Source: a virus | Direction: 5' to 3' (one strand) | Virus record (IMG/VR): IMGVR_UViG_3300027917_000059 | Coordinates: 1-51,582 of that record | Length of the DNA stretch: 51,582 nt | Shown: positions 7,283 through 11,719 of the stretch, piece by piece | Numbering within the stretch: the stretch's first letter is position 1 | Layout of the letters: each line of letters begins with the position of its first letter | Position numbers and translations under genes: made by a program | The notes under the pieces: generated by a model | What the model saw: the letters and a program-made list of their open reading frames with translations, nothing else | What the model was told of the DNA's origin: nothing | Databases searched by the model: none

Positions 7283-7819
7283 TCAATTAACAAGTTCATC
7301 CGGACCGATGTATCGAAGATTACTTTCTTTTTCTTTATTATCGAATTTTTCATCAAATTCCTTATCCAGTTCCCTGAGAGTATCGAATAATCTAGGTTGT
7401 GCTTCCCTTGTCAACACTCCTTGAAATTTAACATTTAATTTAGTTTCTTCGACAAGTGCCTTATAAGTAACTTCAATAAAATCCTCTCTAGAAAGTTGTG
7501 CTAGTTTTTTTGTAAATTCATATCTTATTTCAGACATTTCATCTATTATGGGTTTTAGCACTTCAATTTGCTGCATTGCAGCTTCCATCACAAATTTTTC
7601 TTGATCTGTCGCTGCAATTTTTTGCTGTTCTTCTAGAGATTGATCTGTTGCTGGGTCTTCCATATTTCGACTCATATCTTCACGAGCGGCTTTCTTGGTA
7701 AGATCAACCATAAAATCTACTCGGTCATTCAAGAATTTTTTATCGGACATGAATTTGTTTAAACGATCATTAGTAATTTCTACCATGTCATTTAGAATTT
7801 GTTGTGCCTGTTCTGTCAT
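7283..7819 (-). CDS. Hypothetical acidic coiled-coil protein (178 aa)
   Basis: Starts MTEQAQQILNDMVEITNDR with GGAAG upstream; the frame open to 7870 runs into a terminator. Strongly helical, Glu/Gln/Asp-rich (ATDQSLEEQQKIAATDQEK), with coiled-coil character over most of its length. The C-terminal segment ends RYIGPDELVN. No family recognised. The element TTTAAAAATTGG just upstream looks like the A/T half of the recurring promoter, but the TATAAGAA half is missing. Confidence 0.6.
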   Translation of the reverse strand: MTEQAQQILNDMVEITNDRLNKFMSDKKFLNDRVDFMVDLTKKAAREDMSRNMEDPATDQSLEEQQKIAATDQEKFVMEAAMQQIEVLKPIIDEMSEIRYEFTKKLAQLSREDFIEVTYKALVEETKLNVKFQGVLTREAQPRLFDTLRELDKEFDEKFDNKEKESNLRYIGPDELVN

Positions 7820-7840: not shown

Positions 7841-7878
7841 AAAAAACAAGGGGCTAGAAGTGATATGCAACTAGCCCC
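7841..7878 (-). terminator. Intrinsic terminator of the 7841-8089 RNA
   Basis: GGGGCTAG...CTAGCCCC, an 8-bp perfect stem on the minus strand followed by TTGTTTTTT. Confidence 0.85.
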
Positions 7879-8089
7879 AGGTAAAGTAACGATTGTCAAA
7901 TTAATTAGCCCATAATTCGAAGGTCAAAGATTACAGGTTATGCCCTCTAGTCTAAGTGCTAATACTGATTGACTGAAAGTTACTTAAACGGTAGTCAGCG
8001 GTAGGCATGAGATTATTTGAGTCGATCCTATAAATCACAGAGGCTGCGTTCAGTTCCTGTAAAACTTAGACTAACCGTTTCCAGCGAAT
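7841..8089 (-). ncRNA. Candidate structured non-coding RNA (~245 nt)
   Basis: Between a perfect GGTATAAGAA promoter (8090-8099) and a strong terminator there is no credible ORF (the longest ATG frame is 18 codons, without SD). The RNA can form a 7-bp helix AAACGGT/ACCGTTT (near 8080 and 7987) and a 10-bp helix TAGTCTAAGT/ACTTAGACTA (near 8070 and 7955). Their order, 1-2-1'-2', makes a long-range pseudoknot. Alternatively the first arm extends over AGTC, so the two helices may compete as a switch. A local nested hairpin CTG-AACG-CAG within ACAG/CTGT is also present. It does not resemble tmRNA, RNase P or 6S RNA as I know them. Confidence 0.55.
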
Positions 8090-8110
8090 TTCTTATACCA
8101 AAATTTTAAA
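8090..8110 (-). promoter_or_regulatory. Candidate phage promoter of the 7841-8089 RNA
   Basis: Minus strand reads TTTAAAATTTTGGTATAAGAA, the best match to the recurring consensus. Confidence 0.6.
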
Positions 8111-8160
8111 ATAAAATAAGGGGCCCCAGGGAGATTATCTAGTAGGATATCGTGGTACGC
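8101..8160 (-). ncRNA. Possible short RNA between two promoter elements
   Basis: About 60 bp between the promoter element at 8161-8170 and the next one at 8090-8110. It has no ORF. It ends in GGGGCCCC followed by TTATTTTATTTT, which could work as a weak terminator although the palindrome has no proper loop. It may be a very short RNA, or the region may simply be a second promoter for the RNA downstream. Confidence 0.3.
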
Positions 8161-8180
8161 TTCTTATACCCTAAAAATAA
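8161..8180 (-). promoter_or_regulatory. Candidate phage promoter (GGTATAAGAA)
   Basis: Minus strand TTATTTTTAGGGTATAAGAA, directly after the U-tract of the upstream RNA. Confidence 0.5.
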
Positions 8181-8232
8181 AAAAGAAAAGAAGTAAGCCA
8201 TTCCTGTCTAGTACAGGGTGTGTCCTTCTTTT
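8171..8232 (-). terminator. Long-stem terminator of the 8175-8473 RNA
   Basis: GAAAAGAAG...CTTCTTTTC, a 9-bp perfect outer stem on the minus strand, encloses the hairpin CCTGT-ACTAG-ACAGG. It is followed by TTTTTTATTTTT. Confidence 0.65.
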
Positions 8233-8473
8233 CCAGCATTGATCAGATGCTGTGTGTGTCATATTCATAAACTAGAATCATCATCTATATATAATCTTGT
8301 TTGCTACTCAAAACTGATTCAATTATTAATGGCCACAATACTATCCTCAGTCTTTTACTATACTTACGAAATGAGCTTACAAGCATGGGCTCATACGTAA
8401 AATAGCTGCATAACTTTAGCTACTTGCTTGTCTCTCGGACCATAGATGTAAGCTAAAGCGGGTCCTTGATGGT
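8175..8473 (-). ncRNA. Candidate structured non-coding RNA (~300 nt)
   Basis: Lies between a promoter element (8475-8495) and a terminator, with no coding frame over 13 codons on its strand. Near the 5' end GGACC/GGTCC (8466-8462 and 8441-8437) form a hairpin. Its loop sequence CTTTAGC can pair with GCTAAAG at 8420-8414, an H-type pseudoknot. Next is a hairpin ATGAGC/GCTCAT extended by TTACG/CGTAA; its loop holds GCTTGT, which can pair back to ACAAGC near 8431. Further on, CAGCAT/ATGCTG forms a perfect 6-bp stem before the terminal long stem. Several pairings interlock, which is unlikely for unconstrained spacer. RNA class unknown. Confidence 0.55.
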
Positions 8474-8474
8474 T

Positions 8475-8495
8475 ATCTTATTCCAAATTTTTAAG
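8475..8495 (-). promoter_or_regulatory. Candidate phage promoter of the 8175-8473 RNA
   Basis: Minus strand CTTAAAAATTTGGAATAAGAT, one base off the core, directly downstream of a terminator. Confidence 0.5.
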
Positions 8496-8497
8496 AT

Positions 8498-8526
8498 AAA
8501 AAAAGGGGCGAGTAAACCACGGCCCC
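8498..8526 (-). terminator. Intrinsic terminator of the phosphatase operon
   Basis: GGGGC...GCCCC stem on the minus strand followed by TTTTTTT. Confidence 0.8.
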
Positions 8527-8534
8527 TTATTTAA

Positions 8535-9044
8535 CTAAAATTTTCTAGTTTTCAAGATAATCTTAAATTGCTTGAGTATAACATCATTCGGAGTAATACT
8601 AGCATCAGGCTTATGTAGTTCACCAGTGATTTTGTATTCTTTAGCTAAAATAATAGCTTCATTAATAGATATATTATTTACATAAGCAATCGTAGCAATT
8701 GCAAATGCTGAAGATCTAGATACTCCTCGTCTACAGTGAAATATTAAGAGATCTAAGTTCAAAGGTTTCAGGCTGTCTATAAAATCTAGAAATATATTTA
8801 AATTTTCTATACTCGGTATTTCATAGGCTTTGTATTTAACCATACACTTGAATTTTTTAATATCTCTAAGTAGCATTTGAAATTTAGGACCACAAAAAGC
8901 AGTAAGGCTTTTACCAATTTTTCTTTTATCAGTAGAATCCTTAACCAACGATACTGCTGCGGCCTTTAAGTTATTTTTATACTTCTTAAACAATTTTCTT
9001 GCATCAACAAGAGATACAATTTCAATTTTTGTATTTTGATTCAT
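8535..9044 (-). CDS. Dual-specificity/tyrosine-type protein phosphatase
   Basis: 169 residues. The C-x5-R active-site loop is HCRRGVSRSS (Cys104, Arg110), preceded by a hydrophobic beta strand (LDLLIFHC) and followed by a helix (AFAIATIAY), as in DSP/PTP-fold phosphatases. A general-acid Asp is expected upstream but not pinned down. The substrate could be a phosphoprotein, a nucleotide or RNA 5' end, since the same fold serves all three. Its ATG overlaps the stop of the 9041-9847 gene as ATGA, so the two are co-translated and probably work together. Confidence 0.75.
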   Translation of the reverse strand: MNQNTKIEIVSLVDARKLFKKYKNNLKAAAVSLVKDSTDKRKIGKSLTAFCGPKFQMLLRDIKKFKCMVKYKAYEIPSIENLNIFLDFIDSLKPLNLDLLIFHCRRGVSRSSAFAIATIAYVNNISINEAIILAKEYKITGELHKPDASITPNDVILKQFKIILKTRKF

Positions 9045-9847: not shown

Positions 9848-10004
9848 CCTTGTTTACCTTTTGTTTTAGGATTTAGCTTGTCTAAATAGTAATTATATTA
9901 CTCGATGGTTAGACAATATTTTTATGTTAAAGAAATCGTAGATGGGTGGCAGTTCAGCCATCTGTGCCGTCCTTACATAGTATTCCTATGCTGCGATTCC
10001 ACAA
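9848..10004 (-). ncRNA. Structured 5' leader (possible riboswitch or cis-RNA)
   Basis: The transcript from the promoter at 10005-10014 would carry ~155 nt before the ATG at 9847. It can form a closing helix AATCG/CGATT, a perfect hairpin CATAG-GAATA-CTATG, and a stem GGCA/TGCC. The loop of that stem contains GATGG, which can pair with CCATC just downstream, an H-type pseudoknot. A further hairpin TTGTCTAA/TTAGACAA encloses AGTAAT-ATA-ATTACT close to the SD. The compact pseudoknot followed by a stem near the SD is the layout of a translational riboswitch. No known class is matched. Confidence 0.5.
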
Positions 10005-10029
10005 CTCTTATACCATAAAATTTTAAAAA
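10005..10029 (-). promoter_or_regulatory. Candidate phage promoter of the phosphatase operon
   Basis: Minus strand TTAAAATTTTATGGTATAAGAG, directly after a terminator. Confidence 0.55.
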
Positions 10030-11651: not shown

Positions 11652-11719
11652 AACGGTCGCAAAATTTTAATTAAACTAAGAACTAGAACTAAATCAAAAA
11701 CGTCGAAATTTTTTTGCAT
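11642..11719 (-). CDS. Tiny hydrophobic ORF (25 aa), very tentative
   Basis: Starts MQKNFDVFDLVLVLSLIK. It overlaps the start of the 20-aa ORF by 10 bp in another frame and has no SD. Listed because it completes a chain of overlapping hydrophobic mini-ORFs after a strong terminator. Confidence 0.2.
   Translation of the reverse strand: MQKNFDVFDLVLVLSLIKILRPLWL

Follow-up and report, generated by a model that had tools for sequence, protein, structure and literature searches.

A probable conserved structured RNA gene with two predicted interlocking pseudoknots in a tailed-phage genome

Results

Organization of the noncoding gap

The window, meaning the whole stretch of 51,582 nucleotides that was analysed (record IMGVR_UViG_3300027917_000059), is a 51.6-kb virus sequence with matches to terminase, major head and tail-sheath proteins. 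Since these matches and a 205-kb relative lead to the expectation of a larger genome, the record is probably a piece of a larger tailed-phage genome, and the source lineage appears to be a large uncultivated myovirus. Genes in the first 17 kb of the window (1-17 kb) are read on the minus strand, and the noncoding finding reported here is accordingly described as a feature of that strand. It occupies a gap of ~700 nt between a phosphatase-like gene (8535-9044) and a gene for a 177-aa protein (ATG near 7816), where three units follow one another on the minus strand, A (8475 to ~8178), B (8161 to ~8119) and C (8090 to ~7841). The features of the gap are as follows:

8505..8526, minus strand: terminator-like GGGGC..GCCCC followed by TTTTTTT, seen by eye and not listed by a simple terminator scan
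8476..8484, minus strand: promoter-like GGAATAAGA of RNA A, a copy of the GGWATAAGA motif
8178..8475, minus strand: RNA A, predicted ~300-nt structured noncoding RNA with putative ends, no minus-strand ORF and a homologue in the sister phage at L030 13010-13310
8437..8465, minus strand: S1 hairpin, GGACC (8465-8461)/GGTCC (8441-8437); in the sister GGCC/GGCC with loop TCTTAACTT
8458-8452, minus strand: PK1 5′ arm CTTTAGC in the S1 loop, pairing with GCTAAAG 8420-8414
8426..8431, minus strand: PK2 5′ arm ACAAGC, located after S1 and before the PK1 3′ arm; TCTAAG in the sister
8414..8420, minus strand: PK1 3′ arm GCTAAAG; AAGTTGAGA in the sister
8357..8406, minus strand: H2 long hairpin (ATGAGC/GCTCAT plus TTACG/CGTAA), pair probabilities mostly >0.9 in both RNAs
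8384-8379, minus strand: PK2 3′ arm GCTTGT in the H2 loop, pairing with ACAAGC 8431-8426; CTTAGA in the sister
8318..8346, minus strand: conserved loop block GGATAGTATT..CCA..AATAAT.GAA, near identical in the sister
8234..8252, minus strand: P4 hairpin CAGCAT/ATGCTG, in the fold of both RNAs; GCGCA/TGCGT in the sister
8171..8233, minus strand: P5 terminal hairpin with internal loop GGACAC/TGGCTTA, invariant in the sister, then a T-rich tract
8119..8170, minus strand: element B, GGTATAAGA plus ~43 nt (GTACCACGATATCCTAC.AGATAATCTCC..GGGGCCCC), 90.4% identity over 83 nt in the sister
8091..8099, minus strand: promoter-like GGTATAAGA of RNA C, a GGWATAAGA copy conserved in the sister
7841..8090, minus strand: RNA C, a noncoding unit of ~250 nt with GGGGCTAG/CTAGCCCC and a T-run at its end (7878-7841), fold z -2.23

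RNA A is bounded by the promoter-like GGAATAAGA on one side and by a hairpin with a T-run on the other. The original prediction of an RNA running from promoter to terminator gave no strand; such a unit is present, it lies on the minus strand and it runs from 8475 to ~8178. Every pairing that was named there was found as written when the minus strand was inspected, and the absence of a credible gene was likewise borne out, with no open frame of at least 40 aa on the minus strand of the gap and no reading frame common to RNA A and its sister homologue. A plus-strand ORF of 60 aa (8218-8400) was set aside because its frame is not shared with the sister. The P5 stem spans 8233-8185, with the T-rich tract thereafter reaching to about 8171, and together they likely form an intrinsic terminator, while the terminator-like element at 8505..8526 would close the upstream phosphatase-like unit.

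A diverged homologue in a sister phage

A sister phage (G003, IMGVR_UViG_3300017613_001772, 63.7 kb) was found among the terminase relatives. It is 90% identical to the window phage in the terminase and 94% in the head protein, and 24-66% in the accessory proteins near the RNA, in a fast-changing region whose accessory genes encode a GIY-YIG endonuclease, an outer-membrane barrel and the phosphatase-like protein. At the syntenic position (L030 13010-13310) a diverged noncoding homologue aligns with RNA A. The order of the helices is kept and their letters are changed, namely GGCC/GGCC in S1, TCTTAACTT/AAGTTGAGA in PK1 and TCTAAG/CTTAGA in PK2, with the PK2 3′ arm likewise inside the loop of the long hairpin. 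As the diverged helices came out one or two bases off in the MAFFT alignments, pairs were counted on helices set by hand in the two sequences (n=2), and among the 13 aligned pairs of PK1 and PK2 seven are changed on both sides, one on one side and none is broken. Of the seven PK1 pairs, three are double-changed, one is changed on one side and three are the same; PK2 has four double-changed and two identical pairs, and S1 one double change among four pairs, none being broken in any of these helices. The covariation is thin, since only two sequences are known. Homologues had been named as one way to check the original prediction, and the syntenic one does keep both crossing helices via compensatory changes (n=2).

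Blocks common to both RNAs are TATGCAGCT, the block GGATAGTATT..CCA..AATAAT.GAA and the 3′ hairpin AGAAGGACAC...TGGCTTACTTCTT. They sit in loops, and the inner stem of the 3′ hairpin is altered in the sister yet still paired (CCTGT/ACAGG in the window, CCCCG/CGGGG in the sister). What lies downstream differs: in the window B and C come next after RNA A, and at this point the sister has a GGCATAAGA promoter motif and an unrelated gene for a 178-aa protein. B and C are found there ~1.4 kb from A with other genes between, and A can therefore be regarded as a separate unit.

Statistics of the lone sequence

The crossing helices had been judged to be more than chance would readily give, a view that a single sequence does not sustain. 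The double-pseudoknot descriptor is matched by 0.30% of dinucleotide shuffles (227/74,461) of the 135-nt stretch of the window, its loose form by 1.6% of genomic windows (28/1704), and the nested fold of RNA A is unremarkable against shuffles (z -1.20). When at least three G/C are demanded in S1, a threshold picked after the first scan was seen, matches fall to 0.16% (14/8942 windows in six records); two of the 14 are the RNA A loci, and two other places inside the window also match. In the sister, the topology occurs in 0.43% of shuffles (245/57,386) and the fold is better than that of its own shuffles (z -2.54). Support for the fold of RNA A thus comes from the homologue and not from the statistics of a lone sequence.

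Searches for known families and further relatives

None of the 4227 Rfam families was found at gathering score in the window, nothing credible appeared on the RNA A stretch at E<=5 or on the sister at E<=3, and ARAGORN detected no tRNA or tmRNA in the window. More specifically, neither window nor sister gave a match to GOLLD (RF02032), nor an Rfam match to ROOL, RNase P or 6S RNA, and A, B and C were all without tRNA-like domain or ends, tag frame, ARAGORN hit or Rfam match that would point to tmRNA. The original remark, made from the letters, that no match to tmRNA, RNase P, 6S, GOLLD or ROOL could be made agrees with Rfam (gathering; E<=5) and ARAGORN, and the suggestion of a possibly new phage RNA gains support from the lack of an Rfam family together with a homologue keeping both crossing helices (n=2).

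Searching with blastn for the window and sister loci among INPHARED phages gave no match, neither element B nor the P5 hairpin was found by pattern in GTDB genomes, and scans of IMG/VR with the neighbouring proteins gave nothing beyond the sister, which was also the only viral contig found in IMG/VR with the pattern GAAGGACAC-N-TGGCTTACTTC. The loop-block pattern had eight matches in IMG/VR that fell into two coding gene families and were set aside as chance, as was an exact match of 16 nt to the GC-rich contig L002.

A promoter-like motif, element B and RNA C

The motif GGWATAAGA is a genuine phage signal, with eight copies in the window, each of them on the minus strand, where 1.38 would be expected; it precedes each of A, B and C (at 8484, 8170 and 8099). 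The sister and a distant relative (G006) share the layout, in which a T-run and an AT-rich segment are followed by GGNATAAGA and then by a leader and gene. From this placement after terminator-like T-runs and before leaders or genes in both relatives, we infer that GGWATAAGA is a phage promoter. Upstream of the sister RNA A a perfect GGNATAAGA is absent, the nearest sequence being AGAATAAGG (L030 12990). A further noncoding leader or RNA stands behind GGTATAAGA upstream of a gene for a 268-aa protein in both phages (window 9850-10005, minus strand; L030 11816-11975). An intergenic block holding TTTTGATTTAGTTCTAG (window 11657-11699, minus strand; G003 55819-55861) is 84% conserved and is maybe a second promoter class.

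Element B (about 43-45 nt) exceeds all other DNA of the region in conservation, the other blocks of >40 nt being at 65-84%. Its GGGGCCCC forms no hairpin by itself and B holds several short palindromes, on which grounds it may be a DNA regulatory site or a short RNA. An antisense RNA was discounted because the complements, 13 nt in the window (24477) and 12 nt in the sister, lie in different genes. RNA C has a positional counterpart in the sister (L030 14770-15062, z -2.11); in both phages it is enclosed by the promoter motif and a strong terminator hairpin, with the promoter in common and weak sequence similarity.

Structured RNAs of a distant relative

The distant relative G006 (IMGVR_UViG_3300025602_000002, 205 kb, terminase 56%) carries a GOLLD-like RNA of ~1.1 kb with an embedded tRNA (L044 7960-9095, minus strand), which stands behind GGTATAAGA and ends at a T-run. 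Its match to RF02032 (E 3.6e-34) scores 124.8 bits, under the Rfam gathering score of 150, so a scan at gathering score misses it. The match serves as a positive control, as the search that gave none for RNA A does find a GOLLD-like RNA there. G006 also has a tmRNA (L041 16897-17268, minus strand) with the tag GRPAVKLAA* and ~27 tRNAs (L041, L042, L043). With a GOLLD-like RNA behind the same motif, a tmRNA and these tRNAs in G006, the lineage appears to make use of structured RNAs. Another noncoding unit of ~280 nt (L045 9545-9832, minus strand) runs there from promoter to terminator, with a possible loop-loop contact TACCAGT/ACTGGTA and a fold z of -0.75; it was rejected as a homologue of RNA A, having no double-pseudoknot match and that same z.

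Discussion

RNA A is noncoding and syntenic, with conserved loops and with crossing helices that are kept through double changes, and it very probably represents a conserved structured RNA gene. Considered within the broad class of phage structured noncoding RNA genes, it has start and end signals of its own, as sequence matches and with the sister lacking the perfect promoter motif, as well as compensatory changes, in two sequences.

In regard to how such a gene could work, transcription would start at a GGNATAAGA-type promoter belonging to the phage and stop at the RNA's own 3′ hairpin and T-run (P5). The 5′ third would fold into a compact core of two interlocking pseudoknots, one made by the S1 loop with a segment downstream of it (PK1), the other by the H2 loop with the strand that connects S1 to PK1 (PK2). 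The 3′ part would present two sequence-conserved internal loops of a type usual for protein-binding or tertiary-contact sites, which may bind a phage or host protein, and during infection the RNA could then serve, in trans, as a scaffold on which an RNA-protein complex is built. Action in trans is suggested by the neighbours, which differ between the phages and carry their own promoter motifs. The mode of action, in trans within an RNA-protein complex, is put forward tentatively, whereas the explanation as a whole, an independent trans-acting structured RNA gene serving as an RNA-protein scaffold, seems to us about evenly balanced between right and wrong. It is unlikely that A, B and C together make up a single new phage ribonucleoprotein system, each made from its own phage promoter and A having an interlocked double-pseudoknot core unlike described RNA classes.

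The main structural doubt concerns S1 and PK1. In the best nested folds of either RNA the PK1 helix is formed at the expense of S1, so the two helices are possibly alternatives, and S1/PK1 could be a switch instead of a pseudoknot. RNA A would then be a cis-regulatory leader or attenuator governing read-through downstream, with which its terminator-like 3′ hairpin, as in attenuators, would agree. However, different units follow downstream in the two phages, each behind a promoter motif of its own, the loops (L1 2-3 nt, L3 13-16 nt) permit S1 and PK1 together, and PK2 is also conserved, all of which makes this explanation rather improbable. A coincidence of complementary stretches in an idle intergenic sequence is very improbable: a like topology does occur elsewhere in the window and the fold z of RNA A is only -1.20, but the homologue holds both crossing helices despite its changed sequence, and loop blocks and 3′ hairpin are conserved while flanking proteins are 24-66% identical.

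Other explanations accept the RNA and assign it differently. RNA A, perhaps with B and C, could be a decoy that titrates a host protein or an RNA-guided defence, as might be expected in a fast-changing region with accessory genes such as those for the GIY-YIG endonuclease, the outer-membrane barrel and the phosphatase-like protein, and with a short, highly conserved element B of mimic size; since no similarity to tRNAs or Rfam families was found, we consider it doubtful. A diverged member of GOLLD, ROOL or tmRNA that the models missed would fit the presence of a GOLLD-like RNA and a tmRNA in G006, and these families are pseudoknotted too. Against it stand the empty Rfam results at E<=5 for the window stretch and at E<=3 for the sister, the ~300-nt length of A, its other order of elements and its lack of tRNA-like ends, and we regard it as highly unlikely. 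An independent RNA gene with a possible scaffold role is thus the reading that we prefer.

Comparison with known phage RNAs and ribozymes

GOLLD and ROOL are phage RNAs that are often found near tRNA islands and have no assigned function, and many GOLLD RNAs exceed 800 nt (PMC12286853). RNA A resembles them in being phage-borne and noncoding with several predicted pseudoknots, and a GOLLD-like RNA is present in the distant relative; both families are, however, larger, and RNA A has other conserved sequences, no Rfam match and no tRNA genes on its contig. The tmRNA (RF00023) is similar in length to RNA A and also contains several pseudoknots. RNA A, in contrast, is without tRNA-like domain or tag frame, and tmRNA itself is present in G006. 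Small cores of interlocked pseudoknots are also known from the pistol, twister and HDV-like ribozymes. Here the likeness is one of description, with no Rfam match, and the order of elements in RNA A is unlike theirs, as the 5′ arm of PK2, placed after S1 and ahead of the PK1 3′ arm, has its partner in the loop of another hairpin. To our knowledge, few structured phage RNAs have been recognized beyond tRNAs, tmRNA, ROOL and GOLLD. RNA A would point to a phage lineage in which one promoter type serves several such RNA genes. Its size of ~300 nt, clearly predicted fold, conserved loops and available sister sequence should make structure determination and probing easier than for the giant RNAs.
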